Below are positions 16,760-45,435 of a DNA stretch of 64,000 nucleotides, piece after piece. The position numbers were made by a program, and so were the translations under genes. Numbering within the stretch: the first letter of the stretch is position 1; the number at the start of each line of letters is the position of its first letter. The stretch spans positions 1 through 64,000 of the forward strand of contig NZ_SCNG01000003.1 of NCBI RefSeq assembly GCF_005503555.1. Reading direction: 5' to 3'. Under the pieces are notes generated by a model. That model searched no databases, was not told the DNA's origin, and was given only the letters and a program-made list of their open reading frames with translations. This stretch comes from Rudaea sp. 3F27F6 (GTDB lineage Bacteria; Pseudomonadota; Gammaproteobacteria; Xanthomonadales; Rhodanobacteraceae).

Positions 16760-17923
16760 ATGACCAAGTCAAGCAAATCCCTCGGCCTCGGCACGCGCGC
16801 CATCCATGCCGGCCAGTCCCCGGACCCCTCGACCGGCGCGATCATGACGCCGATCTACGCGACTTCGACCTACGTCCAGTCCAGCCCCGGTGTGCACAAG
16901 GGCTACGAATACAGCCGCACACAGAATCCGACGCGCATGGCCTACGAGCGCTGCGTCGCCGACCTCGAAGGCGGTACACGCGGCTATGCGTTCGGCTCTG
17001 GCCTCGCCGCGGCGAGCACGGTGCTCGATCTGCTCGATTCGGGCAGCCATGTGATCGCGATGAACGATCTCTACGGCGGCACCTACCGGTTGTTCGAGCG
17101 CGTGCGCCGACGCAGCGCGGGGCTCGATTTCACGTTCCTCGACCTCAACGATCAGGCTGCGCTGAAGGCCGCGCTGAAGCCGAACACGCGCATGATCTGG
17201 GCCGAGACGCCGACCAATCCGATGCTGACCTTGGTCGACCTCGCCAAAGTCGGTGCGTTCGCACGCAAACATGGTCTGATCTTCGTCGTCGACAATACGT
17301 TTTGTTCGCCGATGCTGCAGCGGCCGCTCGAATACGGCGCGGATCTCGTCCTGCATTCGGCGACCAAATACCTCAACGGCCACTCCGACATGGTCGGCGG
17401 CATCGTCGTCGCGGGCGAGAATCATGAACTCGCCGAGCAGATGGCGTTCCTGCACAACTCGGTCGGCGCAATCGCAGGTCCGTTCGACGCGTTTCTCGCG
17501 ATGCGCGGACTCAAGACCCTGCATTTACGTATGCGCGCGCACTGCGCAAGCGCGATGGAACTTGCCGGCTGGCTGGAAAAGCATCCGGCGATCGAGCGCG
17601 TGATCTATCCAGGGCTCAAATCGCATCCGCAACATGCGCTGGCGAAGAAGCAGATGGATGGCTTCGGCGGCATCATCAGCGTGGAAGTTCGCGGCGGCCT
17701 GCGCAAGGCGAGGCGCGTGCTCGAGCGCTGCGAGCTGTTCGCACTGGCCGAATCGCTTGGCGGTGTCGAAAGCCTGATCGAACATCCGGCGATCATGACC
17801 CATGCGTCGATCCCGGCGGCGAACCGCAAGCGCCTCGGCATCAGCGACGGACTGATCCGTCTCTCGGTCGGCGTCGAAGACGTGCACGACCTGCGCGCGG
17901 AGCTGACGACGGCGTTAAGCTGA
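16760..17923 (+). CDS. cystathionine gamma-synthase/gamma-lyase family PLP enzyme
   Basis: This 387-aa protein belongs to the Cys/Met-metabolism PLP family. The internal-aldimine lysine is Lys203 in SATKYLNGHSD. Other marks are YSRTQNPTR, FGSGLAAAST, ETPTNP and the C-terminal SLGGVESLIEHPAIMTHA. Sequence alone does not cleanly separate gamma-synthase (MetB) from gamma-lyase. The adjacent cystathionine beta-synthase favours gamma-lyase activity, converting cystathionine to cysteine. It begins 136 bp after cbs and may be cotranscribed with it. A strong hairpin follows 17 bases after the stop. Confidence 0.9.
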   Translation: MTKSSKSLGLGTRAIHAGQSPDPSTGAIMTPIYATSTYVQSSPGVHKGYEYSRTQNPTRMAYERCVADLEGGTRGYAFGSGLAAASTVLDLLDSGSHVIAMNDLYGGTYRLFERVRRRSAGLDFTFLDLNDQAALKAALKPNTRMIWAETPTNPMLTLVDLAKVGAFARKHGLIFVVDNTFCSPMLQRPLEYGADLVLHSATKYLNGHSDMVGGIVVAGENHELAEQMAFLHNSVGAIAGPFDAFLAMRGLKTLHLRMRAHCASAMELAGWLEKHPAIERVIYPGLKSHPQHALAKKQMDGFGGIISVEVRGGLRKARRVLERCELFALAESLGGVESLIEHPAIMTHASIPAANRKRLGISDGLIRLSVGVEDVHDLRAELTTALS

Positions 17924-18044: not shown

Positions 18045-19139
18045 ATGAGCCAGAAGAAGGTTGCCCTCGTCACGGGCATTACGGGGCAGGATGGCGCTTA
18101 TTTGACTGAACTGCTGCTCGCCAAGGGCTATGCGGTGCACGGCCTGCGCAGGCGCGCATCGCTGTTCAATACGGATCGCATCGATCATCTCTACCACGAT
18201 CCGCACAACAAAGGCTTCGATCTGACCCTGCACTACGGCGACCTGACCGATTCGTCGAGTCTGATCCGCGTCGTGCAGGAAGTTCAGCCGGACGAGATCT
18301 ACAACCTTGCGGCGCAGAGTCATGTCGCCGTTTCGTTCGAGGAACCGGAATACACGGCCAATTCGGATGCGCTCGGCGCGCTGCGCCTGCTCGAAGCGAT
18401 CCGCATCGCGAAGCTCGAAAAGAAGACGCGTTTCTACCAGGCCTCGACCTCCGAGCTGTACGGCCTCGTGCAGGAAATTCCGCAGAAGGAAACGACACCG
18501 TTCTATCCGCGCTCGCCGTATGCGGTGGCCAAGCTGTACGCGTACTGGATCACGGTGAACTACCGCGAAGCGTACGGCATGTACGCGTGCAACGGCATCC
18601 TGTTCAATCACGAATCGCCGGTTCGCGGCGAGACTTTCGTCACGCGCAAGATCACGCGCGCGCTGGCGCGAATCAAGCTCGGCCTGCAGGAATGCCTGTA
18701 TCTGGGCAACCTCAATGCCTTGCGCGATTGGGGCCACGCGCGCGATTACGTGGAAATGCAGTGGCTTATGCTGCAGCAGCAGGCCGCTGAGGACTACGTC
18801 ATCGCGACGGGCCAGCAGCACTCGGTGCGGGAATTCGTCGATCTCGCGGCGAAGGAGATCGGTATCGGCATCCGTTGGCAGGGCGTCGGTGAGGAAGAGA
18901 AGGGCTACGACGAGGCGAGCGGAAAGTGCATCGTCGCCGTCGATCCGCGCTACTTCCGGCCGGCTGAGGTCGAGACATTGCTCGGCGATCCGAGCAAGGC
19001 CAAGCAGAAGCTCGGTTGGGAGCCGCGCACGACGTTCCAGGAACTGGTCGCCGAGATGATGCGCGAGGATCTCAAGGAAGCGCAGCGCGACGAGCTGGCG
19101 CGCCAGAACGGGTTCAAGTACTTCAACTACAACGAGTGA
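18045..19139 (+). CDS. gmd: GDP-mannose 4,6-dehydratase
   Basis: This 364-aa extended short-chain dehydrogenase converts GDP-D-mannose to GDP-4-keto-6-deoxymannose. The NADP-binding motif TGITGQDG is at 10-17, the catalytic segment STSELYG is at 134-140, and the YxxxK pair is Tyr159/Lys163 in [11 protein letters not shown]. The [11 protein letters not shown] segment is typical of Gmd. It opens the surface-glycan region and is followed 11 bp later by a GDP-perosamine synthase. No fucose synthase or rhamnose reductase gene follows, so the 4-keto sugar is probably committed to perosamine. CGGAG lies upstream of ATG 18045. Confidence 0.96.
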
Positions 19140-29959: not shown

Positions 29960-31741
29960 ATGAATTCTCAAGCAACGAAAAAGATTTCAGACGAATCAAT
30001 TCCGGTTGAGAAGGGGCTGCTGCAATATCTCATATCGGACTGGAGGTGGCTGATACTCGGTGCGATTTTCTCTTTTCAGTTCGCCAGCATTTTGCTGATG
30101 GGATGGCCTAACGGTCTGGTCCCATCCATTCGACTCCCGTATGTGTATGCCGGTGATGCCTTGTTTTTCCACTGGATGGCGCAGCGATCGATCGAGGGCT
30201 GGTATTTTATAAACGAGCGAAGCGGATTTCCTTTTGGGTCGACAACGTACGATTTTCCTAACTCCGATGCGGGTAGCTTTCTGATCTATAAGATTCTGGG
30301 AAATCTTACGGGTTCGGTTTTTTCGGCTGTGGATTTATATTTTCTCCTAAGCTTCCCCGTTATATTTATCACGGCGTTCATTGTTCTGAGGTCATTCGAC
30401 ATCAGAAAAATATACTGCGCGATGGCAGCAATTCTTTTCGCCTTTGCGCCATTTCATTTTTCGCGATTGATGTACGGGCACGATTTGTATCTTTGGTATT
30501 TTGGTATACCACTTTTTTTTTATTATGGAAAAAATCTTATTTATTATGGACAGACGCATTGGGGGCTGCGAAAACCAAGGCGGTTGATATCCCTTTTGTT
30601 TGTGGCGTTTTTGCTCAGTTCGTTTGGGATTTACTACGCATTTTTCGGAGCAATCGTGCTGCTCGTTTGTGGGATAGCGTCGAGCTTCAAGACCGTAACT
30701 TTTCGCCCGTTGAGAAATTCGCTGCTCTTCTGCGTGCTGATTTTCTCCGGCTGCGTACTGAACCTTTTGCCGAGTATCGTGTATCGACAAACACATGCCG
30801 TAAACCATGAGGTTGCGCAGCGAGTGCCGCTGCAGACTGAAGTGTATTCTTTGAAGATAATGACCCTGCTGCTGCCACAGCCGGATCATCGTGTTGAAGC
30901 GCTGAGGTCGTTCACCGCGATGTATAACTCGACTTTCCCTCTCGCCAATACAACGGCTTCCCTGGGAATCGTCGGCGTCATAGGTTTTCTGGCGATTCTG
31001 CTGTCGGTAGGGGCGGGCCTTGTTCAAAAACCGATTGGCCCGGCCTTTGGTGTAGCTGCCATGGTGGTTGTCTCTCTGCTGTTAATTTCAACGGTCGGAG
31101 GGTTTAATGTCTTGTTCGCAATCCTCGTAACGCCGTTGATTCGAGGCTGGGATCGAATAAGCATCTTTATTGAATTCGGTTCTATTTTAGCATTTTGCCT
31201 TTTGCTCGATGGGTGTGCCCGCATCAATCGAAGTTCATTTGTCGCATCACTATGTGCAATCGTGGCAACAATCGCGGGGCTTTGGGACCAGACACCCTCA
31301 TCATATCGCTCGGTTGTTGCCGCCGGATCCGCAGCGGCGGCTGTAGATGAAGAATTCATTCACCAGATAGAGGCATCAATGCCACCGGAGTCGGCGATCT
31401 ATCAATTGCCATATATGAGATTTCCAGACTTCGGGCCACTTCAGAAACTAGGCGGTTATGAGCTGGCTACCGGGTTCACCAACTCGAAAACCTTGCGTTG
31501 GAGTTTTGGCGGAATGCAGGGCAGAGAGGGGGATTTATTTTTCCGGGGGTTGGCAGAAAAGAGTGTGCCTGAGCAGATTGTTGCAATCCAAAATCTAGGC
31601 TTCTCTGGAATTTATATCGATCGCAGAGGATTCGCCGACAGAGGGGTGTCGATCATCGACGATTTCTCCCGCGCTATTGGATCGGCGCCGATATTAGAGA
31701 GATCGGATGGAAACGTTGTTTTCTTCAAGTTGACTCATTGA
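29960..31741 (+). CDS. AT-rich polytopic membrane protein, probable GT-C-like
   Basis: This 593-aa protein has about 11-12 hydrophobic helices (for example WLILGAIFSFQFASILLMGW, FPVIFITAFIVL, LLFVAFLLSSFGIYYAFFGA). A C-terminal soluble segment of about 150 residues follows (MPPESAIYQLPYMRFPDFGP, IQNLGFSGIYIDRRGF). Loop 1 contains YVYAGDALFFHWMAQ, with an acidic residue where GT-C enzymes carry their catalytic Asp. Local GC falls to roughly 25-45% in places, well below neighbouring genes, and this suggests horizontal acquisition. Its stop overlaps or abuts a GtrA gene. A periplasmic-facing glycosyltransferase acting on a polyprenyl-phosphate sugar is an inference. Confidence 0.72.
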   Translation: MNSQATKKISDESIPVEKGLLQYLISDWRWLILGAIFSFQFASILLMGWPNGLVPSIRLPYVYAGDALFFHWMAQRSIEGWYFINERSGFPFGSTTYDFPNSDAGSFLIYKILGNLTGSVFSAVDLYFLLSFPVIFITAFIVLRSFDIRKIYCAMAAILFAFAPFHFSRLMYGHDLYLWYFGIPLFFYYGKNLIYYGQTHWGLRKPRRLISLLFVAFLLSSFGIYYAFFGAIVLLVCGIASSFKTVTFRPLRNSLLFCVLIFSGCVLNLLPSIVYRQTHAVNHEVAQRVPLQTEVYSLKIMTLLLPQPDHRVEALRSFTAMYNSTFPLANTTASLGIVGVIGFLAILLSVGAGLVQKPIGPAFGVAAMVVVSLLLISTVGGFNVLFAILVTPLIRGWDRISIFIEFGSILAFCLLLDGCARINRSSFVASLCAIVATIAGLWDQTPSSYRSVVAAGSAAAAVDEEFIHQIEASMPPESAIYQLPYMRFPDFGPLQKLGGYELATGFTNSKTLRWSFGGMQGREGDLFFRGLAEKSVPEQIVAIQNLGFSGIYIDRRGFADRGVSIIDDFSRAIGSAPILERSDGNVVFFKLTH

Positions 31742-31782
31742 AGAATGCTAGCTATCAAGGTAGATCAAACATTGATGTTCGC

Positions 31783-32160
31783 ATGATGTGGAAAAATCTA
31801 CTAATAAAATATTCCGTTGCTGGCTTGGCTAACAGCGCCGTAGGCTATGCGGTAATATTTTCCTGCATGTTTCTCGGAATGAGCGCGACGCTCAGCAATG
31901 TGCTCGGCTATTTGGTCGGCTTGGTACTTTCGTATGTGCAGTTTCGCTTCTTTGTTTTTCAATCAAACAATCATTCTGGCCGAGAGATTGTTCGCTTTTT
32001 TGTCGGATTTTTGATTGCGTTCTCTGCAAATTTTTGTGTGCTGAAAGCTCTTTTGGAGGCCGGCTGGAATCCGTTTTTGTCGCAAATTATTTCTTGCGCA
32101 GTCTATGTGATTGTTGGATTTGTAATTAACTCGAAGTTTGTCTTTTCGAAGAAAATCTGA
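31783..32160 (+). CDS. GtrA-family membrane protein (copy 1)
   Basis: This 125-aa protein has four transmembrane helices in the GtrA/DPMS pattern: KYSVAGLANSAVGYAVIF, NVLGYLVGLVLSYVQFRFFVF, FFVGFLIAFSANFCVL and ISCAVYVIVGFVINSKFVF. GtrA proteins are proposed flippases or partners for polyprenyl-phosphate-linked sugars. ATG 31783 gives the normal family length; an in-frame TTG at 31738 that overlaps the previous stop by four bases is an alternative and would imply translational coupling. The gene is AT-rich like its upstream neighbour and converges on a GT2 gene. Confidence 0.83.
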   Translation: MMWKNLLIKYSVAGLANSAVGYAVIFSCMFLGMSATLSNVLGYLVGLVLSYVQFRFFVFQSNNHSGREIVRFFVGFLIAFSANFCVLKALLEAGWNPFLSQIISCAVYVIVGFVINSKFVFSKKI

Positions 32161-32161
32161 G

Positions 32162-32180
32162 CTATTTTTGATTAAAAACC
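32162..32180. terminator. AT-rich hairpin between convergent gtrA and GT2 genes
   Basis: TTTTT-GATT-AAAAA lies in the 25-bp space between the convergent stops. The stem is short and A/T only, so termination here is tentative. Confidence 0.25.
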
Positions 32181-32185
32181 AGTTT

Positions 32186-33124
32186 TCACGTGATCTCCCG
32201 AATTACAAATTGGGGCTTTTTGTTGACCTTGAGATAGGTCCTGCCCAAGTACTCTCCGACCACGCCAAGGCAAAAAGTCTGCAGGCCGCCGACGAGAAGA
32301 ATCACAGCGATTAGCGACGTCCATCCTGCCGGCAACTCCGGATGCAGCAGCTTATTGAGGACGACCAGGGCAACGGCGACCAAGCTCAGGAAGGTCAAGA
32401 TCATGCCGAGCGCCGTTGCGAGACGAAGCGGGAACACGGAAAAGCTCGTCGCCATCTTCAGCCACAACGATATCGATCTGCGCAGGTTGTAATTGCCTTT
32501 GCCTTCAAGCCGTTCTTGATGCTGGATGGAAATGACGTGCACGTTGTGCGTAATGTCGAGAATGAGGCCGTCCACGTAGGCGAACGGTCCGTCGTATTGC
32601 ACGACTTGCCGGGCGATATCCCCATGCAACGCTTTGAACGACGATAGATACAGTCCGCGCGGTTTCTTCAGCAAAATTCCCGCGACCCGATCATTGAACC
32701 AACTGCCGATTCTCTTCCACGCCGCATGCTGGCGGTTCTCATAGCGCGTGTAGCACACATCGAAACCCGAGCGGATCGCGTCATCGAGGCGCAGGATGGA
32801 CTCCGGCGGATGTTGCAGATCGTCATCCATGATTACGACGACTTCGCCCGTTGCCTGCGACAAACCGGCCATAGTGGCGTTGTGCTGACCGACATTCTTG
32901 GCCAGTCGGATGCCTTTTACAAAAGCGTGTTCCTGCGCGAGCTGCCGAATCACTTTCCAACTGTCGTCCGGGCTGGCGTCGTTTACCAGGATCAGTTCAA
33001 AACGATGCGAAGTACCGGCCATGGCATCGGCTACTTTAGCTACCAGATGCGGAAGGATCTTCTCGCTTCGATACACGGGTACGACTATCGAGGTATCGAT
33101 GAGGGGCAGATTCGGGTCAGGCAT
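32186..33124 (-). CDS. GtrB/DPM-like family 2 glycosyltransferase
   Basis: This 312-aa protein has a GT2 (GT-A) domain with SIVVPVYRSE (12-21), VNDASPDDS (48-56) and the DxD-type motif MDDDLQHPPE (99-108). Two C-terminal transmembrane helices follow (about 230-290) and end in LGVVGEYLGRTYLKVNKKPQF. This is the GtrB/ArnC/DPM1 pattern: transfer of a sugar from a nucleotide donor to undecaprenyl phosphate on the cytoplasmic side. ATG 33124 was chosen because the family start begins there; the frame is open upstream inside the epimerase gene. It overlaps that gene by eight bases. Confidence 0.9.
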   Translation of the reverse strand: MPDPNLPLIDTSIVVPVYRSEKILPHLVAKVADAMAGTSHRFELILVNDASPDDSWKVIRQLAQEHAFVKGIRLAKNVGQHNATMAGLSQATGEVVVIMDDDLQHPPESILRLDDAIRSGFDVCYTRYENRQHAAWKRIGSWFNDRVAGILLKKPRGLYLSSFKALHGDIARQVVQYDGPFAYVDGLILDITHNVHVISIQHQERLEGKGNYNLRRSISLWLKMATSFSVFPLRLATALGMILTFLSLVAVALVVLNKLLHPELPAGWTSLIAVILLVGGLQTFCLGVVGEYLGRTYLKVNKKPQFVIREIT

Positions 33125-33806
33125 AGTACTTTTCCAATGTTCTGAGCAGATAGCCGTCGTCGAACGATATGCCGCATCTGCGTATGGACTCGGCAATTGT
33201 CGAGGTGTCGATGTGATATTCGGCGCCTTTTTCGATTGAATTGAACACCGCCGCGTGCTGCGTCGTTGCTTCCAGGGCGGCGACGATCTCCTCCATCGAA
33301 TAGTCGCGGCTGTTGGCGATGTTGACGAAGTCGTGGTCGCCGCTCCCCTGCTCGATAAGGTCGACGGTGATCTTGGCGACGTCTTCAACATCAATGATAT
33401 TGCGTCGAGCGAACCGCCATAGATCGAATCGTTCGGAACGCACGATCCTCGCGTACAGATAGTTCAGTATCGTGTGCGGATTCGGTGTACTGCCTGCTAC
33501 TTGGGGTAGCCGGGCGATAAGGAACCTGCGGCGCCGGCGCACCAATGCTTCGAGCTCGAATTTGTGCCGCGTATAGCGGTTGTCGACAGATCCTGGATCG
33601 ACAATGCTGCAGGTACTGAAATAAACGAACAGTTTGCTGTCCGGCGTATCCGCTAGGGTAGCTTGCAGCCGCGAGGAATCGCGTTGGTATTCGGACTCAT
33701 ACGAGCAGGATGAATTCGAGACTCCGGCTGCATATACGCACACATCCTTCAGCGAGGCCCGAACTGGAATGAATGCTCTTGCGAGGAGACCGGAGCCGAT
33801 AATCAT
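33117..33806 (-). CDS. short NAD-dependent epimerase/reductase-like protein
   Basis: This 229-aa Rossmann protein begins MIIGSGLLARAF, a compact nucleotide-binding glycine motif. VYFSTCSIVD and YTRHKFELE supply a YxxxK-like pair (Tyr-Thr-Arg-His-Lys), and INVED-like NIIDVEDVAKI follows. At 229 aa it is shorter than typical extended SDR sugar epimerases (about 310), lacking part of the N-terminal fold, but it reads as an intact frame. It overlaps the GT2 gene by eight bases and could supply or modify the sugar that GT2 loads on the lipid. Exact substrate unknown. Confidence 0.75.
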   Translation of the reverse strand: MIIGSGLLARAFIPVRASLKDVCVYAAGVSNSSCSYESEYQRDSSRLQATLADTPDSKLFVYFSTCSIVDPGSVDNRYTRHKFELEALVRRRRRFLIARLPQVAGSTPNPHTILNYLYARIVRSERFDLWRFARRNIIDVEDVAKITVDLIEQGSGDHDFVNIANSRDYSMEEIVAALEATTQHAAVFNSIEKGAEYHIDTSTIAESIRRCGISFDDGYLLRTLEKYYA

Positions 33807-34450: not shown

Positions 34451-35746
34451 CTACGATGCCACCAATCGTGCCAGTTCCAGTCCCACTTTAACGCTTTCGC
34501 TGATCGATCGGTCCTCCGGATAGTAGTAGGACGTATCGGCCATATAGAGTCCGTTGATCGGCGTGCGCATCGGCGGCAGCATCGCCGAGAATCCCGGCGG
34601 GCAGATCGTCTGGGCGAAGTCGTAGCGATGGCAGTGGCTCGCGAGCACCCAGTCCGGCTTGAACGCAGGATTGAGTTTCGGCAGGTAGCCAAGCGTTTCG
34701 TCGATGAAAGACTGGTTGTCGCGCGCGTACTTGGGATGCGTCTTCGGCATGTAGAACGGCGCGTAGACGATCGTCGTCCCCGCTCCCGGATTGAGGTTGG
34801 AGTATTCGATCACGCCGGGAATCTCGATACTCTCGTCGCAGATGTTCATCCAGAAGTTCTCGCTCAACGGCTGCTTCAGCTTGAGGATGACGCAGGCGAC
34901 CGGGATGTTCTTGATCGCGCGGATTCGTGCAGCGAATTCTTCGGGCAGGTCGGGCACAAGAGCAGGCACGTACTGGATCGGTGCCGTGCTGACGACATTG
35001 TCGACCGCGCTCTCCGCCCCGGCAACGACGATGCCGCGAACTTTGCCCGAGCCATCGGTCGTGACTTTCTCAATACCCGAGCGCAGATGAATACGGCCTC
35101 CGAGCGACTCGATGCGAGCGCGCATCGCTTCGAGCAAGGTGGACGAACCGCCTTCGAGATAGCCGAGCGATTCATTGAACAGATTGCGTCGCGATAGCGC
35201 AACGCGCTTGATTCGCGTGCCTAACCACGCTGCCGAAAGCTGATCGCTCAGCTCGTAGAACTTGAGATAGAACAGCCGCTCCCAGAGCACTTTGTACGCG
35301 CGCTCGCCCAGCCAGGACTTCAGCCACGGCAATGCGCCGATCTTGTCGAGCGCAGTCCAGTCGCTGACGCTCTTAGTCTTCATCACCTGTAGCGCGTAGC
35401 GGAATTTCTCGATCAAGCCCAGACCATCGAAGCGCAACAGCGCTTGCGGCGTGCCCCATTTGTACAGGCGGCCATTCCAGTAGAAACCCATCTTGGTATC
35501 GGTCCAATGGAGACGATCGGACAGCCCCAGTTCGCCGAGCAGGTCGAATAGCGGATAGTCGGTCTTGCAGATGAAGTGGTAGTAGCGCTCGATCGCGAGG
35601 CCGTCGAAATTGAAATGCGCGGACATGCCACCAATTCGGTCGTCGCGCTCGTAGATGTCGACCTCATGGCCGGCCTTGAGCAATTCGAGCGCACAGATCA
35701 GGCCCATTGGGCCAGCGCCGATGACGGCCGTCGTAGTTTTTTTCAT
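34451..35746 (-). CDS. FAD-dependent oxidoreductase (amine-oxidase/UGM-like fold)
   Basis: This 431-aa protein starts with a dinucleotide-binding motif, VIGAGPMGLICALELLKAG, then YERDDRIGGMSAHF, the GG doublet that contacts FAD in amine oxidases and UDP-galactopyranose mutases. The C-terminal NGLYMADTSYYYPEDRSISE segment closes the FAD site. The middle (KFYELSDQLSAAWLGTRIKR) is family-specific. Such proteins recur in polysaccharide loci but the reaction is not established. It could be a sugar mutase, desaturase or oxidase. It lies between GtrA and a GT-C-like protein. Confidence 0.8.
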   Translation of the reverse strand: MKKTTTAVIGAGPMGLICALELLKAGHEVDIYERDDRIGGMSAHFNFDGLAIERYYHFICKTDYPLFDLLGELGLSDRLHWTDTKMGFYWNGRLYKWGTPQALLRFDGLGLIEKFRYALQVMKTKSVSDWTALDKIGALPWLKSWLGERAYKVLWERLFYLKFYELSDQLSAAWLGTRIKRVALSRRNLFNESLGYLEGGSSTLLEAMRARIESLGGRIHLRSGIEKVTTDGSGKVRGIVVAGAESAVDNVVSTAPIQYVPALVPDLPEEFAARIRAIKNIPVACVILKLKQPLSENFWMNICDESIEIPGVIEYSNLNPGAGTTIVYAPFYMPKTHPKYARDNQSFIDETLGYLPKLNPAFKPDWVLASHCHRYDFAQTICPPGFSAMLPPMRTPINGLYMADTSYYYPEDRSISESVKVGLELARLVAS

Positions 35747-35852
35747 TTTTCGATTACCGTTCTGGATCGCGCACAGCGACGGATTGAGCATTTGCTGGCT
35801 TGATCAGGCGCCCGGGCAGACGTGCCTGCATCGAACGAGCAATCATGGGCCG

Positions 35853-37898
35853 CTATTTTTTGAGTAGGCCCCGATTGGGCTGATGCAATTCTACAGGCAT
35901 TCCTACGCCGATCCATTGCCCCCAGCCAGAGCCATCGTCTTCGGCGCGGATCGTGTATCGCGCGCACGCAGGCGCCGCGTGGATGCGTATTGCGGTCCAA
36001 TCGATGACCGGAGGAGGCAGCCCCTCGGTGACGACCTCGCGGACCCCGCCGATATCGCGTTCGATCGACAGTGTGCCGCTACGCACCGGACCCACGACGT
36101 AGGGGACGACTACGTCACCACATGCCTCAAACGGGCCTATGACAAGCTGGCCCGTTTTGCCGTCGGATCCGCTCCACGAAGCGTACAGAGGATAGGGCCA
36201 GTCGGACGATGAAAGCTCTGACGGATATCCATTCAGAGTCCATGCCGGCGACATTTGTGCTGATGTGGAGATGGCGTGATAGTCGGTCTTCTGCAGTAGC
36301 TCTAGGTTTGCCGTACAAGACTTTTCCGGCGTATCGGGAGGCGAGCTCACGAACAGAAAACCTGGGCCGTGAATTGATTGCAAAGTCGATCCGGGCGACC
36401 CGTCGAATGGGCTGGGAAACCGTTCCTCTACCCGATATCCCTTGGCCTGGAGTTCCAGAAGCGTTCGTTTGGACGGAAGATCGCCGAAATCGAAGATCTT
36501 GTGAATGACCGCTCCGCAGAAGGAACCACGCAGCGAAGAAATTTTTGCCGTATCCGCCCACGCGAATAGCACCGGCAAAGAGTGCCGGCTGCCGATGTCC
36601 TTGGTCATCGCTTCGACTCGTTTGTCCCGATCTCCATCAAACAAAGTTTTGTAGAGGGTGGCGCTGACCGAGTATGCGGGCAGCGCGACGAGAACCAGAA
36701 CGACACCTGCCGCAGCAGCCAGCCAGCCGCCGGCGCCGTCGCTGCGCGCATTGAGGGCAGCGCGAATACAGCGACCAAGAAATACAAATCCGAGTGCGGA
36801 CATGGCGAACATAATCGGAAGCGCATGGCTGAAATTGCGTTCGAAGAATGTTCGGGTCTGCATGAAGTACAAAAGAGTCAGCAGCGGGCCGGCGACAGCA
36901 AACAGAACGACATGATTTCTCTCGCGGAGCAAGCTGAAAGCGCCGACGACGAACAAGATCAGCGCCGGCCAGCCTTGCGTATAGGCCAGATAAGCAACGC
37001 CGTTGGCGAGTCGGGCGAGCAAGCCGGCGTCGCCCAGCGTATACGGCCACCAACCGGTGCCGTTGTACTGTTTGAATAAAAATCCGAGGCCATTCAGATA
37101 TTCCCACGGAGCATGCAAAGCATAAGGTGCGCCGTAACCAAAACCGAAAACGATACCGACAAAATAGAGGGCGCATGCCGAAGCAATCGCCCATGGGTGC
37201 GGCAGCGCGTAGGCATAGTGCCGGGAATGCAGGCGCGCGGCGATCGCCAGCAGCGGAAAAGGTAAAAACAGCAGGAAGGTGATCTTCGCTGCGACCAGCA
37301 GGCCGAGGATGAACCCGCTCAAGGCCAGAATCATCCAGATTCTCAGATTGGAGCTGATCTGCACCAGTACGAAAGCCAGGGTTAGAACGGAAACGAATGT
37401 TTCCGGACGGGCATACAGATCGTCCTGGAAAAGCGTCACGTTGCACGCTGTCAACGTGGCTCCGATGACGGCGCCGAAACGGTTCGAGAGTCGCCAGGCG
37501 AGCAGTCCGGCAAGCAAAACGACGATCCCGCCGAAAATGACGTTTTGCTGGCGCAGATTTTTGATCAGCACCGAACTGTTGTTGATGTCCTCGGCACGAT
37601 GACCTAGGAGCTTTTCTATTTTGGCGGCGACCAGGTAGTAGGATGAAAAATTGAACTGATCGTAGCGAAAGCCGACGACGTCGGTGCGCGCCCAATTCGT
37701 ATCCTTGGATTTGGTGGCCAGCACCTTGCCGACGACGGCGCGCGCAATCTCCTCGTCGGGATGCCCGTAATTTCCCGCCAATGCATACCAGTGTGCGCAG
37801 GATGACGCGATGGCAATCGCAAGCAGCAAGACGATCGTGGCACAGCGAGAAGTAGCGAGATCGATGAATCTCTTCGCAGTGGCCGATGTGGACATCAT
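35853..37898 (-). CDS. GT-C/ArnT-like membrane glycosyltransferase
   Basis: This 681-aa protein has about 11-12 transmembrane helices between residues 20 and 420 and a soluble C-terminal domain of about 250 residues. The first periplasmic loop contains YGHPDEEIARA, the acidic motif expected of GT-C (GT39/GT83) enzymes, and a second loop contains FQDDLYARPETF. This architecture fits an enzyme that takes a sugar from polyprenyl phosphate in the periplasm. It overlaps the upstream epimerase gene by four bases. By analogy with the mycobacterial locus it might be an arabinofuranosyltransferase; acceptor unknown. Confidence 0.78.
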   Translation of the reverse strand: MMSTSATAKRFIDLATSRCATIVLLLAIAIASSCAHWYALAGNYGHPDEEIARAVVGKVLATKSKDTNWARTDVVGFRYDQFNFSSYYLVAAKIEKLLGHRAEDINNSSVLIKNLRQQNVIFGGIVVLLAGLLAWRLSNRFGAVIGATLTACNVTLFQDDLYARPETFVSVLTLAFVLVQISSNLRIWMILALSGFILGLLVAAKITFLLFLPFPLLAIAARLHSRHYAYALPHPWAIASACALYFVGIVFGFGYGAPYALHAPWEYLNGLGFLFKQYNGTGWWPYTLGDAGLLARLANGVAYLAYTQGWPALILFVVGAFSLLRERNHVVLFAVAGPLLTLLYFMQTRTFFERNFSHALPIMFAMSALGFVFLGRCIRAALNARSDGAGGWLAAAAGVVLVLVALPAYSVSATLYKTLFDGDRDKRVEAMTKDIGSRHSLPVLFAWADTAKISSLRGSFCGAVIHKIFDFGDLPSKRTLLELQAKGYRVEERFPSPFDGSPGSTLQSIHGPGFLFVSSPPDTPEKSCTANLELLQKTDYHAISTSAQMSPAWTLNGYPSELSSSDWPYPLYASWSGSDGKTGQLVIGPFEACGDVVVPYVVGPVRSGTLSIERDIGGVREVVTEGLPPPVIDWTAIRIHAAPACARYTIRAEDDGSGWGQWIGVGMPVELHQPNRGLLKK

Positions 37899-38839
37899 CT
37901 CTTCAGCACGATGCTGCTATAGCGCGGATCGCAGTAACTTTCGCGCACGGCATCCTCGAACGGCGTCTGCGTCACGCCGAAAGTCGCGCGCGTGTCGACG
38001 CCGTGGAATTCGTCGCCGGCGCTGAGCGCTTTGAGCTGGTCGGCGGTGAACGGCGGTTTGCCGCTGAACAGCGCGTATACCTTGAGGAGGGTGTAGAACA
38101 GTGAATAGGGGATATGCACGATCCAGGTGTGCAGGCCCTTGGCGCGCTTGATCGTGCGGATGATGTCGACATAGTCGATGCGCGTGTCGCCGCAGACGTC
38201 GTAGGCCGCGCCGTCGGGCTGGGTCTCGATGCACTTGGCGATGCAGCGGCAGAAGTCGCGCTCGTACAGCGGCTGGCGCATGTACTTGCCGTCGCCGGGG
38301 ATCGGAAAAACCGGCGTCTTCGCCATGAAGCGCGACAGCCAGCCGAGGTGCTTCGGATCGAACCAGCCGAACATCAAAGTCGGCCGCAGTACGCAGTGCT
38401 TGATGCCGGACTTGACGACCAGTTTCTCCTGGACTTTCTTCGTATTCGTGTAGTCGTCGTCGGCGACCGAATTGACCACGGACGAGGAGATATGTACGAG
38501 GTAGGGCACGTCGTGGCGTTTCACCGCATCGAGCACGATGCGCGTCGCGTCGATGTTGTTGCGCACGAAGATCTGCGAGTCCTTGCCGGTGATCTGCGCA
38601 TGCAGCTGCACGGCACAGGCGGCGCCGGCGAAGCTCGCTTCCCATTCACCGCGCTCGGCGACGTCGGCGAGGATCGCCTGCACGTCCGGATGCAGCCGGC
38701 GCAGGATGCCGAGGTTGTACTCGTGCTTGTCGATGGCGACGAGGTTCGTATAACCCTGCGCCTTGAGTTCGACGATCAGGTTTTGGCCGACGAGGCCTGC
38801 CGCGCCGGTGAGTACGATTTTCGAATCCTTGGCGATCAC
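37895..38839 (-). CDS. NAD-dependent sugar epimerase/dehydratase
   Basis: This 314-aa extended SDR has TGAAGLVGQNL (residues 11-21) for NAD binding, HISSSVVNS with the catalytic Ser, and the YxxxK pair in YTNTKK. ALRPTLMFG-like LRPTLMFGWFDP follows. The substrate is likely a nucleotide or lipid-linked sugar. It follows the DprE2-like gene by 13 bp and overlaps the GT-C gene by four bases, placing it inside the arabinose-like module. Confidence 0.86.
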   Translation of the reverse strand: MIAKDSKIVLTGAAGLVGQNLIVELKAQGYTNLVAIDKHEYNLGILRRLHPDVQAILADVAERGEWEASFAGAACAVQLHAQITGKDSQIFVRNNIDATRIVLDAVKRHDVPYLVHISSSVVNSVADDDYTNTKKVQEKLVVKSGIKHCVLRPTLMFGWFDPKHLGWLSRFMAKTPVFPIPGDGKYMRQPLYERDFCRCIAKCIETQPDGAAYDVCGDTRIDYVDIIRTIKRAKGLHTWIVHIPYSLFYTLLKVYALFSGKPPFTADQLKALSAGDEFHGVDTRATFGVTQTPFEDAVRESYCDPRYSSIVLKR

Positions 38840-38852
38840 GCGATGCGGTCCG

Positions 38853-39593
38853 TCACAGTTTGAGCTTTTTGAAAATCGGTTCGGGAATGTGCTTGATGAT
38901 CAGCATGATCAGGCTCCAGAACCACGGCAGATAGACGACACTTCGGCGCTTGTCGATCGCGTGCACGATGCCGGCGGCGATCTGGTCGGGCTTGGCCCAT
39001 AGCGCGCCTTTGTTGGCGATCGCCGCGGTCATCGGCGTGTCGACGAAACCGGGCTTGATCGTGAGCACGTCGACGTTGGACTTCGCCAGGCGCTGGCGCA
39101 GGCCGGAAAGAAACGCGCTGACCGCGGCCTTGGCCGAACCGTAGGCGTAGTTGCTCTGCCGGCCGCGGTCGCCGGCGACCGAAGAAATCACCGCGAGCGT
39201 GCCGTTTTTGCGTGCCTCGAACAGATTCGCGAGCGTCGTGAGCAAGGCCATTGTCGACAGAGCGTTGACGTTGAACTCGCGGCGCAAGGCGTCGACGGAT
39301 TTCTCGCATTCGGCTTGGTCTGACAGCGTGCCGTGCGCGATCAGCACGGTGTCGAGGCCGCCGAGTTCACGCTCGGCCTGGTCGATCACCGCCTGGTGCG
39401 CGGCGAAGTCGGCGACATCGAGGGTCGCGTGCGCTGCGCGCACCGCGCCGCGCACGCCGAGATCGGTGGCGATCGCCTGCAGGCGGTCGGCATTGCGCGC
39501 GACGAGGAACAGGGCGTCGCCGCGCGTGGCGAAGATGCGCGCCGTGGCTTCGGCGATGGCCGAGGTCGCTCCGATGATCAAGACTTTACGCAT
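38853..39593 (-). CDS. DprE2-like short-chain dehydrogenase
   Basis: This 246-aa classical SDR has the cofactor motif IIGATSAIAEATARIF (7-21), NAHG-type IAHGTLSD, and the catalytic Ser in VISSVAG with Tyr151/Lys155 in YAYGSAK. The C-terminal helix (LPWFWSLIMLIIKHIPEP) is hydrophobic, as in DprE2, which reduces the 2-keto intermediate of decaprenylphosphoryl-ribose to the arabino epimer. The pairing with the DprE1-like gene four bases upstream supports this assignment. Known DprE1/DprE2 pairs act on polyprenyl-phosphate sugars; the lipid here is likely undecaprenyl. Confidence 0.85.
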   Translation of the reverse strand: MRKVLIIGATSAIAEATARIFATRGDALFLVARNADRLQAIATDLGVRGAVRAAHATLDVADFAAHQAVIDQAERELGGLDTVLIAHGTLSDQAECEKSVDALRREFNVNALSTMALLTTLANLFEARKNGTLAVISSVAGDRGRQSNYAYGSAKAAVSAFLSGLRQRLAKSNVDVLTIKPGFVDTPMTAAIANKGALWAKPDQIAAGIVHAIDKRRSVVYLPWFWSLIMLIIKHIPEPIFKKLKL

Positions 39594-39597
39594 AAGC

Positions 39598-40893
39598 TCA
39601 TTCCATCACGCGGCGCCAGAAGCCGGAAGAAAATTTCGGGTCGATAGCGCCGCGCATTTCCTGCCAGCGCGGAAAATATTGCCGAAAGCGTGCGCCGTTC
39701 ATGCGCGCGTCCTTGGCTGGATAGACCGCGCCGCCTGCGGCGGCGGTGATCTCGTCGAGGCGGTCGAGCAGGGCAAACGTCGCGGCACCGCGGTTCGGAA
39801 AATCGAGCGCGAGCGTCGTCCCCGCGCGCGGGAACGAGAGTATACCCGCCGCCGGCCGGTCGGCGAACACCTTGAGTACGGCCAGGAACGAGCCGCTGCC
39901 GCTGGCCGCGATCGTGCGCAGCAGCTCGGCGGTGGCGGTCTCCGCGGCGGCCGGCGGCACGACGCACTGGTATTGCAGGAATCCGCGCGGACCGTAGATG
40001 CGGTTCCATTCGCCGATCGCATCGAGCGGATAGAAGTACGGCTCGTAGTGCACGATCTCATGGCCTTCGTGAGCACGGCGGAAATACAGCTCGTTGAAGG
40101 CGGACAGGCTCAAGCCGTTGATCAGCGAAATCGGCGGCGTGAACGGTACGCTGAGCCGGCGCTGGCGCGGCGCAGCGATGGCGGCATTCGCCGGCGCATG
40201 GTTGGCGCTGTAGAAAATGCCGCGACCGAAGCGGTCGCCGCGGGCCGTGCAATCGATCCAGGCGACGGTGTAGGCGTAGTCGCGCTCGGACTGCGCTGAC
40301 AGCGAGAAGAATTCGGCGAGGTTGCCGAAGCGCCGCGTCTCCTGCGCCATCCACGGACTGGCGATGCGCTGCAGGCGGAATTCCGCCCAGACGATCACGC
40401 CGGTCAGGCCGAGGCCGCCGATTGTCGCAGCGTAGAGGTCCGCGTTCTCGTCCGCACTGCATTCCAGGCGTCGGCCGTCCGAACGCAGCAGCTCGAATCG
40501 GAGCAGATGCTCGCCGAACGTGCCGGCGACATGGTGATTCTTGCCGTGCACGTCGTTGGCGATCGCGCCGCCGACGGTGATGTAGCGCGTACCCGGCGTG
40601 ACCGGCAGAAACCAGCCCTGCGGTACGGCGAAATCGAGGATGTCCGCGAACAGCACGCCGGCCTCGCAGCGCAGGATGCCGCTGGCCGGGTCGAAGGCGA
40701 TGTAGCGGTCGAGTCCGCGCGTATGCAGCAAGGTGTTGCCGTCGTTGAGGCAAACGTCGCCGTAGCTACGGCCGTTGCCGTAAGCGAGCACGCTGCCTTC
40801 GGCGTCGGGCAGTCCTTCGTCGCGCCAATGCAGCGGCGCGACCGTCTGCTTAGCGCGCGGATAGCGGCCCCACGATGTCCCGACCGCGGGCAT
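39598..40893 (-). CDS. DprE1-like FAD-linked oxidase
   Basis: This 431-aa protein has a PCMH/FAD-binding-4 domain: YGNGRSYGDVCLND (38-51), TPGTRYITVGGAIANDVHGKN with the HGKNHH motif near 116-121, and IGGLGLTGVI. The ALO-type C-terminal domain holds YPAKDAR with Lys394 at the place of the DprE1 active-site lysine. It should oxidise the 2-OH of a polyprenylphosphoryl ribose. The residue aligning with mycobacterial Cys387 is Ala362 (TLALDFP). A single base separates it from the UbiA gene upstream. Confidence 0.86.
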   Translation of the reverse strand: MPAVGTSWGRYPRAKQTVAPLHWRDEGLPDAEGSVLAYGNGRSYGDVCLNDGNTLLHTRGLDRYIAFDPASGILRCEAGVLFADILDFAVPQGWFLPVTPGTRYITVGGAIANDVHGKNHHVAGTFGEHLLRFELLRSDGRRLECSADENADLYAATIGGLGLTGVIVWAEFRLQRIASPWMAQETRRFGNLAEFFSLSAQSERDYAYTVAWIDCTARGDRFGRGIFYSANHAPANAAIAAPRQRRLSVPFTPPISLINGLSLSAFNELYFRRAHEGHEIVHYEPYFYPLDAIGEWNRIYGPRGFLQYQCVVPPAAAETATAELLRTIAASGSGSFLAVLKVFADRPAAGILSFPRAGTTLALDFPNRGAATFALLDRLDEITAAAGGAVYPAKDARMNGARFRQYFPRWQEMRGAIDPKFSSGFWRRVME

Positions 40894-40894
40894 G

Positions 40895-42322
40895 TCAGAT
40901 GGCCACGACGATCACGATGGCGCACAGCGCCAGAACGACTCGGCTGACATAGTCGGTCAACGCGAACACCACCGGATCGTCGTCCATCAGACCACGATGC
41001 GCCTTGAGCCAGACGCGGCTGACCCAGTAGAGCAGCAGCGGGCAGAGCAGCCACAGCACCTGCTGGTGCCGGTACAGCACTTCGCTCGCCGAACTGTTGA
41101 TGTATAGCGCGAGCACGAGCACGGCGAGATAGCCGCTGGCGCCGCCGAGCGACTGGATCAGGCTCAGATCGTCGGTTTCGTAGCCGCGCCCGTCGGTGCG
41201 GCTGCGGCCTTGCTGGAGCAGGCTGCGCAGTTCGGTATAGCGTTTGACCAGGGCCAGACTGAGGAACAGGAACATCGAGAACGCGAGCAGCCAGAACGAC
41301 GGCGCCGAATGGATCGCGACGGTGCCGGCGATGATGCGCACGGTATAGAGCGCGGCGAGCACGACGGTGTCGAGCATCGCGATGCGCTTGAGTCGGAATG
41401 AATAGGCCAGGGTCAGCAACCAGTAGCCGAACAGCACGATCGCGAACTTCGCCCCGACCGCGATCGCTAGCGCGAAAGCGGCAACGGTCAGCGCCGGCGC
41501 GGCGACGAGACCGGAGGCGAGCGCCAGCGTGCCGGCCGCGAACGGACGCAGCCGCTTGCGCGGATGATTGCGGTCCGACTCGAGATCGAGCAGATCGTTG
41601 AGCACGTAGACGCCCGAAGCGCACAGGCCGAAGCTGACGAAGGCCAGCAGCGACAGCACGACGGCTTCGACCTGGAACAGCTTGTGCGAGGCGAGCAGGG
41701 GCAGGAATACGAGCAGGTTCTTCAGCCACTGATGCAGGCGCAGCGCCTTGATCCAGGTGCGCAGGCCGCCGCCGTTGTGCGGCAGCACCTGTTCGACCGA
41801 GGTCACCGCGGCCGCGCGCCGGGCGAGGCCGTCGCTTGCGTTGACCACGATCGCGCTGCGCGCGTACTGCCAGACTTTCAGGTCGGGCGCGGCATTGCCG
41901 GCATAGTCGAAGCCGCGTTCGCCGTAAAGTTCGACGAGAGCCTGGGCCTTGTTCGATCCGGCCAGATTGCGTTCGCCGTCGCTCGCGATCACCTCGTCGA
42001 ACACGCCGAGATGGGCGGCGACGGCATCGGCGTACTTGCGGTCGGATGCGGTGCAGAGCACGCGATGCCGCGACGAGTCGCGCAACCGGTCGACGACGCG
42101 GTCGTCGTACGGCAGCAGCGAGACATCGACCTCGCTGCGCGCGGCGATCTCGCGCTTCATCGCCGCCTTGCCGCGCAGCAGCCACGCGCCGCAGCGCAGA
42201 ATGTTGAGCGGATTGCGGCGTATCAGTCCGAGTGCGGACTCGATTAGCAGGTCCGAACGGATCAGCGTGCCGTCAAGATCGACGCAGAGCGGAATGTCGT
42301 CGCGTTGCTGGGCGGCCGTCAT
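40895..42322 (-). CDS. HAD-UbiA fusion, decaprenyl-phosphate phosphoribosyltransferase-like
   Basis: This 475-aa protein joins an N-terminal HAD phosphatase (DLDGTL at 15-20; TASD near 91-94; GDxxND-like YAGNAAPD near 140-147) to a C-terminal UbiA prenyltransferase of about nine helices. The UbiA motif NDLLDLESDRNHP is at 242-254, with a second site at RIAMLDTVVLAALYTVR. UbiA homologues in arabinan-making actinobacteria attach PRPP to decaprenyl phosphate; the HAD part could remove the 5-phosphate. ATG 42322 lies nine bases after the acetoacetyl-CoA synthetase stop. The set UbiA-DprE1-DprE2 supports a polyprenyl-phospho-ribose/arabinose pathway. Confidence 0.87.
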   Translation of the reverse strand: MTAAQQRDDIPLCVDLDGTLIRSDLLIESALGLIRRNPLNILRCGAWLLRGKAAMKREIAARSEVDVSLLPYDDRVVDRLRDSSRHRVLCTASDRKYADAVAAHLGVFDEVIASDGERNLAGSNKAQALVELYGERGFDYAGNAAPDLKVWQYARSAIVVNASDGLARRAAAVTSVEQVLPHNGGGLRTWIKALRLHQWLKNLLVFLPLLASHKLFQVEAVVLSLLAFVSFGLCASGVYVLNDLLDLESDRNHPRKRLRPFAAGTLALASGLVAAPALTVAAFALAIAVGAKFAIVLFGYWLLTLAYSFRLKRIAMLDTVVLAALYTVRIIAGTVAIHSAPSFWLLAFSMFLFLSLALVKRYTELRSLLQQGRSRTDGRGYETDDLSLIQSLGGASGYLAVLVLALYINSSASEVLYRHQQVLWLLCPLLLYWVSRVWLKAHRGLMDDDPVVFALTDYVSRVVLALCAIVIVVAI

Positions 42323-44493: not shown

Positions 44494-45435
44494 TTATCCC
44501 AGCGCCGCTTCGAGTTCCGGAATGATCTTGAACAGATCGCCGACGAGGCCGATGTCGGCGACTTCGAAGATCGGCGCTTCGCCGTCCTTGTTGATCGCGA
44601 CGATCGTGCCGGCGTCCTTGATCCCGGTCAGATGCTGGATCGCGCCCGAGATGCCGATCGCCATATACAGTTCCGGTGCGATGATCTTGCCGGTCTGGCC
44701 GACCTGAAGATCGCTCGGCACGTAGCCCGCGTCGACCGCGGCGCGCGAGGCGCCGACCGCCGCGCCGAGCTTGTCGGCGAGCTTGAAGATGATCGCGAAA
44801 TTCTCCGCCGAACCGACGCCGCGGCCGCCCGAGACGACGCGGCCGGCGCTCTGCAGGTCGGGGCGTTCGCTCGAACCCTGGGCAAGCTCGACGAAGCGCG
44901 TATGCGTCGGCAGCTCGGCGCTGAGGCTGAGCGCTTCGACCGGCGCGCTGCCGCCGTCCGCCGCCGCGGCCCACGAAGCCGTGCGCACGGTGGCGACGAG
45001 TACCTGATCGGCCGGTGCCTGCACCGTGATGATCGCGTTGCCGGCGTAGATCGGACGCGTGAAGGTGTGCGCGTCGATCACGCTGATGACGTCGCTGACC
45101 TGGGCGACGCCGAGCAGGGCGGCGACGCGCGGAGCGAGGTCCTTGCCGAACGTCGTCGACGGCGCGAGCACGTGGCTGTAGCCCGCCGCCGCGGCGACGA
45201 TCTGCGGCGCATACACCGCGGCGAGCGCGTGCTGGTTCGCCGCATTGGCGACGGTCAGCACCTTGGTCACGCCGGCGATTTTCGCCGCTTCGGCGGCGAT
45301 CGCGTCGGGCGCGTCGGCGAGCACGAGCACGTCGATCGCGTCGGCCTTGATTGCCTGCGCGCAGCTCACGCAGCGTGCCGTGCTGGAATTGAGTTTGCCG
45401 TTGAGATGCTCGGCGATGATCAGAATTTTGGACAT
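44494..45435 (-). CDS. etfA: electron transfer flavoprotein alpha subunit
   Basis: This 313-aa protein is the FAD-carrying ETF subunit that passes electrons from acyl-CoA and other dehydrogenases to ETF-quinone oxidoreductase. Visible marks are the start [55 protein letters not shown] and [20 protein letters not shown], the last two forming the FAD site. It follows etfB, separated from it by a 158-bp gap filled with inverted repeats. The heterodimer with EtfB is the standard arrangement. Confidence 0.96.

Follow-up and report, generated by a model that had tools for sequence, protein, structure and literature searches.

What is made by a compact run of minus-strand genes that joins homologues of the mycobacterial arabinose enzymes to two further enzymes? 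We addressed this question in a contig of Rudaea sp. 3F27F6 (host genome, 5.7 Mb), of which a stretch of 64,000 nucleotides, here called the window, was analysed. Based on comparisons of gene content and spacing, homology, motifs, predicted folds and joint conservation, given below, we suggest, at a probability of roughly 0.7, that the products of this run build a pentose donor linked to a lipid. In this pathway, ribose would be converted to arabinose, and arabinose to a further pentose by a short-chain dehydrogenase/reductase (SDR), here Epi, and a flavoprotein, here FADox; the lipid-linked product would then be flipped and transferred to a glycan. Read from 42322 to 33985, the genes are, in order:

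40895..42322, minus strand: HAD-UbiA fusion, 475 amino acids (aa); model NF006088, Pfam domains UbiA (PF01040) and HAD (PF12710), match to structure 8j8j, motifs
39598..40893, minus strand: DprE1-like flavin adenine dinucleotide (FAD) oxidase, 431 aa; model NF053785, match to solved DprE1, motifs
38853..39593, minus strand: DprE2-like SDR, 246 aa; models NF005489 and NF053786, YGSAK at 151
37895..38839, minus strand: Epi, extended SDR and candidate epimerase, 314 aa; predicted fold and motifs
35853..37898, minus strand: polytopic protein resembling glycosyltransferases of class C (GT-C), candidate pentosyltransferase, 681 aa; hydropathy and HPDE motif, class inferred
34451..35791, minus strand: FADox, flavoprotein of the amine oxidase/phytoene desaturase superfamily, 446 aa
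33985..34443, minus strand: GtrA-type candidate flippase, 152 aa; Pfam GtrA_DPMS_TM, E 1.7e-13; start codon selected in the present analysis

The first-pass annotation had described four nearly touching genes on one strand (UbiA, DprE1-like, DprE2-like and an epimerase-type SDR, 37895..42322), followed by a GT-C-like protein, an FAD enzyme and GtrA. All seven are present, GT-C being a putative class. From the fusion gene to GtrA the intergenic gaps are 1, 4, 13, -4, 61 and 7 nucleotides, so short that the genes probably form one operon. The GC content is 0.62–0.67 in the first four genes (fusion to Epi) and 0.55–0.59 in the last three; it drops to 0.48 in an adjoining second GT-C-like gene. 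Below, the genes for the UbiA protein, DprE1, DprE2, Epi, FADox and GtrA are treated as a six-gene set, and the GT-C-like open reading frame (ORF) was scored separately.

A fused enzyme for a probable ribofuranose step

The fusion protein matches model NF006088 over residues 3–475 of 475 (670.6 bits; cut-off, 351) and is composed of an N-terminal HAD domain and a UbiA domain. Among solved structures, its UbiA half is most similar to the decaprenyl-phosphate phosphoribosyltransferase 8j8j (E 2.1e-27). It carries the motifs DLDGT at 15, NDLLDLESD at 242 (pattern NDxxDxxxD) and KRYTEL at 360; N242, D243, D246 and D250 as well as the DLDGT aspartates are invariant in the window protein and five relatives. 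Both domains are shared by ORF15 of Citrobacter youngae, whose activity has been demonstrated with phosphoribosyl pyrophosphate and farnesyl phosphate, according to the passages of Kelly 2024 (PMC11127046) on which we draw here and below. Replacement of D18 in its HAD domain, or of N247, D248, D251 or D255 in its UbiA domain, lowers or abolishes this activity (PMC11127046), and the DLDGT and NDxxDxxxD motifs of the fusion follow the pattern of these tested residues.

Because the fusion shares the two-domain plan of ORF15 and the motifs of DprE1 are kept in the next protein of the operon (see below), polyprenyl-phosphate-ribofuranose is likely to be the product of the first step, and polyprenyl-phosphate-arabinofuranose that of the following one. 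The HAD half is a candidate phosphoribose phosphatase, the UbiA half a candidate polyprenyl-phosphate phosphoribosyltransferase. The first-pass annotation had compared the genes with the mycobacterial route. As the phosphatase is fused to UbiA in the manner of ORF15, the nearest described system is instead the Gram-negative pentofuranose pathway (PMC11127046). NF006088 scored above its cut-off in 37 of 299 genomes sampled across the phylum; 33 of these matches start in the HAD half (model position 12 or lower) and four start later.

Homologues of DprE1 and DprE2

Residues 35–428 of the DprE1-like protein align with solved DprE1 (21gq/4kw5; E 5.8e-68), its best match among solved structures. 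The motifs HGKNHH, QYQ and AKDxR (here AKDAR), which we take to be catalytic, are kept. The kinship to mycobacterial UbiA and DprE1 proposed in the first-pass annotation is thus borne out by the solved structures closest in sequence to the two proteins. The DprE2-like SDR scores 342.8 bits against NF005489 (cut-off, 267) and bears YGSAK at 151. If the two proteins act like their mycobacterial homologues, the DprE1-like oxidase would oxidise C2 of the ribofuranosyl lipid and the DprE2-like SDR would reduce it with inversion, yielding polyprenyl-phosphate-arabinofuranose.

At the position of NICVDF in solved DprE1, the window protein has TLALDF, and all 64 parsed relatives have TLALDF or TLAVDF. 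The cysteine of NICVDF is presumably Cys387, the target of inhibitors. Covalent DprE1 inhibitors require this cysteine; given its absence from the aligned sequences, they should therefore fail on the DprE1-like proteins.

Epi and FADox form a linked pair nested within the proposed pathway

In a class sample of 369 genomes, Epi (E ≤ 1e-50) was found in 13 genomes, and 16 gave a FADox match. Thirteen of these FADox matches exceed 600 bits and fall in the very genomes that have Epi; the remaining three were below 290 bits. The two genes lie at most 2.2 kb apart on one contig in 12 of the 13 genomes, and on two contigs in the other (G327). All 13 genomes also contain DprE1, and 12 contain the UbiA gene; in the thirteenth (G465) the contig stops just beyond DprE1. 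For three of these genomes (G327, G568 and G628), DprE2 was looked for solely within the fetched stretches.

We then approached the pathway from its first gene. Among 36 UbiA-gene loci fetched with their flanks from NF006088-positive phylum genomes (window genome excluded; some loci cut by contig ends), 29 had DprE1 (at least 200 bits), 24 had DprE1 and DprE2, and five had Epi and FADox; Epi without DprE1 occurred in none. A set of named relatives, the best 80 of at least 507 confirmed Epi loci, includes two loci from one genome and one that is apparently mislabelled. In this set, all six genes lie within about 21 kb in 60 loci, and FADox accompanies Epi in 77. Since the arrangement recurs in other bacteria, it is not due to chance.

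These distributions argue that Epi and FADox belong together and are not bystanders. Given that each of them occurs alongside the other and alongside DprE1, D-arabinofuranose would be an intermediate; the pair look like enzymes acting after arabinofuranose, together turning the arabinofuranosyl lipid into a further pentose, and the final sugar is probably other than plain arabinofuranose. The nesting of Epi and FADox within DprE1/DprE2 loci, and of these within UbiA loci, reads as a pathway extended at its end, as far as presence and absence in related, hence non-independent, genomes can indicate.

Two alternatives bear directly on these counts. The first-pass annotation had proposed a D-arabinofuranose decoration of the cell surface; the UbiA and DprE1 kinship, the surface-glycan setting and the GtrA partner agree with it, whereas arabinofuranose as the end product does not fit the tie between Epi, FADox and DprE1. 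That the final sugar is nevertheless plain D-arabinofuranose, with Epi and FADox serving another sugar or role, seems improbable. DprE1 and DprE2 are the known arabinofuranose-making pair, and their homologues occur in loci of arabinofuranose-containing glycans (PMC11127046, in part). Such a division of labour would leave unexplained why DprE1 is found in every Epi- and FADox-bearing genome of the class sample and why distant bacteria keep the pair within this operon. Alternatively, Epi could be a C3 epimerase of the xylofuranose type acting on ribofuranose, so that two pentofuranoses would be made in parallel; indeed, a single SDR, ORF13 of C. youngae, decides xylofuranose over ribofuranose (PMC11127046, same passages). 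We consider this very unlikely, as DprE1 would then be needless for Epi, yet none of the five Epi loci among the 36 lacked it, and FADox would be left without a role.

Several observations weigh against an extended pentose pathway as proposed here. Both the DprE1-like protein (359.3 bits against NF053785; cut-off, 500) and the DprE2-like SDR (171 bits against NF053786; cut-off, 250) score under the NCBIfam equivalog cut-offs, and on sequence grounds they are thus homologues, not proven equivalogs. Of the 12 class genomes that have the UbiA gene as well as Epi, eight match the HAD and the UbiA half of the fusion, three (G330, G525 and G617) gave no HAD match in the fetched stretch and one was cut by a contig end; fusion to a phosphatase is thus common, though not universal. 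The GT-C-like protein of the window matched no Pfam or NCBIfam model, and where the C. youngae pathway has an exporter of the multidrug and toxic compound extrusion (MATE) family (PMC11127046, in the passages used), the window has GtrA. Finally, 20 of the 80 named loci lacked one or more of the six genes in view. About half of these are cut by the end of a contig or of the fetched stretch; the rest are L137 (Lysobacteraceae) and mostly Thiotrichaceae, with the genes apart. In L137 and several of the Thiotrichaceae, Epi, with or without FADox, stands apart from the other genes. In three class genomes of this kind, the UbiA gene and DprE1 are located elsewhere in the genome.

In the three class genomes without a HAD match (loci L073, L077 and L080), the UbiA protein is encoded beside Epi and FADox, and a separate phosphatase may serve there. 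Among the Thiotrichaceae and their relatives, the stretches of L143, L145, L148, L150, L155 and L160, and likewise that of L137, contain Epi and FADox and none of the UbiA, DprE1 and DprE2 genes; GtrA is in view in L148 and L155 only, and in L146 and L149 FADox is out of view as well.

Which pentose could Epi and FADox produce?

Epi is predicted to adopt an extended SDR fold with GxxGxxG and YxxxK motifs, resembling UDP-sugar C4-epimerases. Dehydratases and the complex I subunit NDUFA9 score equally well, so that neither the substrate nor the carbon acted on follows from the fold. Its closest relative among the 80 named loci is from Rudaea cellulosilytica (91% identity), followed by Dyella and Tahibacter (77–83%). 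For FADox, residues 1–13 are of low confidence and the true start is possibly Met16. The closest predicted folds are redox flavoenzymes, and in whole-fold comparison UDP-galactopyranose mutase (UGM), a flavoprotein that interconverts furanose and pyranose rings, was not favoured over other flavoproteins. The UGM family model TIGR00031 did not appear in the top 25 of 38 family matches, and hhalign alignments with two UGM sequences were limited to the FAD-binding region. In a mafft alignment, the UGM segments HRYGPH, ARIPVR and YRYYNMD stand opposite ERYYH, TRIKRV and SYYYPED of FADox, UGM being the sole family of the superfamily so aligned.

Inversion of D-arabinose at C4 yields L-xylose, and this carbon is free in the pyranose but not in the furanose ring. 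A tentative possibility is therefore that the six genes constitute a route to L-xylose. FADox would act as a furanose-to-pyranose mutase on polyprenyl-phosphate-D-arabinofuranose and Epi as a C4-epimerase on the resulting pyranose, giving polyprenyl-phosphate-L-xylopyranose; GtrA would flip this lipid, and GT-C proteins would add side chains to rhamnose-rich O-chains. Such a route would explain the paired extra enzymes after DprE1 and DprE2; the predicted fold of FADox favours a mutase no more than other flavoproteins.

The published glycans point both ways. In the portions of the reports used here, the O-antigen of R. solanacearum has a terminal, non-stoichiometric beta-L-xylopyranose on a rhamnose-rich chain (PMC10450222), X. 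campestris pv. begoniae a "partially L-xylosylated L-rhamnan" (title and passage, PMC5786101), S. maltophilia O18 a xylosylated rhamnose unit (title in a reference list, PMC11089167) and X. translucens a lipopolysaccharide (LPS) with rhamnose and xylose (PMC8042644). Taken as glycans, those of X. campestris pv. begoniae, X. translucens and S. maltophilia O18 would speak for L-xylose. Two observations speak against it. In X. citri, whose strain 306 carries the gene set as judged by gene names, the O-antigen is described as a polymer of rhamnose (PMC8042644, which cites Casabuono 2011), and the xylose of the Xylella O-antigen is given as the D form (PMC5786101).

The redox character of the FADox folds accords with another alternative, in which FADox and Epi would mirror DprE1 (flavin oxidase) and DprE2 (SDR): as a further oxidase and reductase they would invert arabinofuranose at C3 and produce D-lyxofuranose. 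ORF13 of C. youngae is an SDR able to invert C3 of such a lipid-linked sugar (PMC11127046). Against this alternative, the same passages state that lyxofuranose is found in no solved carbohydrate structure. The YxxxK site of Epi, moreover, is of the epimerase type, and the protein resembles epimerases that act alone; we regard D-lyxofuranose as unlikely.

Proposed export and transfer

In the proposed pathway, the sugar on its lipid would be flipped by GtrA and then transferred in the periplasm by the GT-C-like protein, most likely as a side chain of the O-antigen specified by the same locus. The latter protein has eight hydropathy segments and an HPDE motif at position 46, after the first segment, which we take as a sign of GT-C enzymes; its class is inferred from hydropathy, this motif and context. 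Ten other polytopic proteins had no Pfam match either. Compared with the sequences of solved structures, the GT-C-like protein of the window gave three PDZ-domain chains at E 0.05–0.06, which is not meaningful. A polytopic ORF of at least 350 aa with at least seven hydropathy peaks lies near 54 of the 60 complete loci, some of these ORFs maybe encoding other membrane proteins. GtrA (at least 60 bits) is part of the definition of the 60 complete loci, and it was also found in nine of the 20 incomplete ones.

Relation to known pathways

The three-component pentofuranose pathway of C. youngae O1/O2 (ORF15, ORF14, ORF12 and ORF13; PMC11127046, in part) resembles the window in its HAD-UbiA fusion, SDR epimerase, separate exporter, GT-C-like transferase and O-antigen locus. 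The window differs from it in the additional DprE1 and DprE2 and in a flavoprotein tied to Epi; no MATE family match was found among ten window proteins scanned. With the mycobacterial decaprenylphosphoryl-arabinose pathway (Rv3806c, Rv3807c, DprE1, DprE2, Rv3789 and GT-C arabinosyltransferases), the window shares a UbiA phosphoribosyltransferase, DprE1, DprE2, a small exporter and GT-C; it differs in the HAD-type, fused phosphatase, the two added enzymes and TLALDF in place of NICVDF.

The description of lipid-linked pentofuranose synthesis in Gram-negative bacteria dates from 2024 and covers ribofuranose and xylofuranose, and by inference arabinofuranose; in the passages at hand, examples with several epimerases or several GT-C proteins from Xanthomonas and Bacillus are left unexplained (PMC11127046). 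The six-gene unit, which is conserved across Gamma- and Alphaproteobacteria, would extend this pathway, with Epi and FADox as its distinguishing enzymes, and leads to a prediction of the sugar. A literature search, mostly outside subscription papers and without the supplement of PMC11127046, turned up no L-xylose donor and no reported function of an Epi/FADox pair. Should the product be L-xylose, the unit would account for the biosynthesis of a sugar in the O-antigens of plant-associated bacteria, and a family of flavoproteins would gain a new role.

Setting within an O-antigen locus

Genes of O-antigen synthesis are located further along the plus strand of the window, and the following genes surround the six-gene set:

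16760-17923: flanking gene, cystathionine-lyase/synthase (metB-like), below the equivalog cut-off
18045-19139, plus strand: gmd, 595 bits (cut-off, 415)
O-antigen region, plus strand: aminotransferase, best model 365 bits, below the cut-off of that model
O-antigen region, plus strand: ATP-binding cassette exporter ATPase, 221.5 bits, below cut-off
O-antigen region, plus strand: NeuD-type acetyltransferase
29960..31741, plus strand: second GT-C-like polytopic protein, eight hydropathy segments, no Pfam match
31738..32160, plus strand: second GtrA, GtrA_DPMS_TM, E 5.4e-18
32186..33130, minus strand: family 2 glycosyltransferase (GT2) of the polyprenyl-phosphate-sugar synthase type, Glycos_transf_2; 170 bits with the ArnC-type and 164 bits with the PgfS-type model, both below cut-off
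44494-45435: flanking gene, electron transfer flavoprotein (ETF) alpha-like, below the equivalog cut-off

The first-pass annotation had named a perosamine O-antigen locus, and perosamine is plausible, short of proof. Pilin, which it had listed among the possible acceptors, finds no support, although no search aimed at it was made; the genes sit in an O-antigen locus. The six-gene set sits between the metB-like and the ETF alpha-like genes, which is the position reported for the xanthomonad LPS locus, between metB and etfA (PMC2238763, in part). The LPS loci of Xanthomonas citri 306, X. oryzae pv. oryzae BXO8 and X. oryzae pv. oryzicola BLS256 occupy this same position. In the part of that report used, they list a prenyltransferase (481 aa), an oxidoreductase, a short chain dehydrogenase, an epimerase (312 aa), a "phytoene desaturase" and a 136-aa protein, perhaps GtrA, with no function assigned to the set (PMC2238763). 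For these three strains, the genes were paired with their window counterparts by names, lengths and order only; other Xanthomonas loci were matched by sequence.

A second candidate system for a lipid-linked sugar (29960-33806), comprising the ArnC/PgfS-type GT2, the second GtrA, the second GT-C-like protein and a small SDR, adjoins the six-gene set. The O-antigen may therefore bear two side-chain sugars.

Distribution and mobile copies

Epi occurs in 23 of the 247 genomes sampled from a neighbouring family in the order of the window host; for the order of G130 the count is 16 of 293, and for the G130 family it is 5 of 248. This distribution is patchy, as that of O-antigen genes would be. No Epi relative was confirmed among viral contigs, and a phage collection gave one partial UbiA match. 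By annotation, the uninterrupted operon in the same order is also plasmid-borne, in Burkholderia stagnalis, Agrobacterium salinitolerans and a member of the Rhodobacteraceae.

On the B. stagnalis plasmid (L167, 1-11703), the operon adjoins genes annotated as isonitrile synthase family, nucleotide-diphospho-sugar-binding protein and methyltransferase; these neighbours hint at a pentosylated secondary metabolite instead of LPS. On the A. salinitolerans plasmid (L168, 1-11636), typed as conjugative, its neighbours are genes for rhamnan synthesis F and for glycosyltransferases. An assembly titled Bacillus subtilis SK7B5 (L164) has a complete operon of the Xanthomonadaceae type, with an Epi 75% identical to that of the window, and is probably mislabelled or contaminated. 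Dyella jiangningensis has two copies of the operon on one chromosome (L089 and L090), which show the same match pattern and lie about 0.32 Mb apart if the chromosome is circular.

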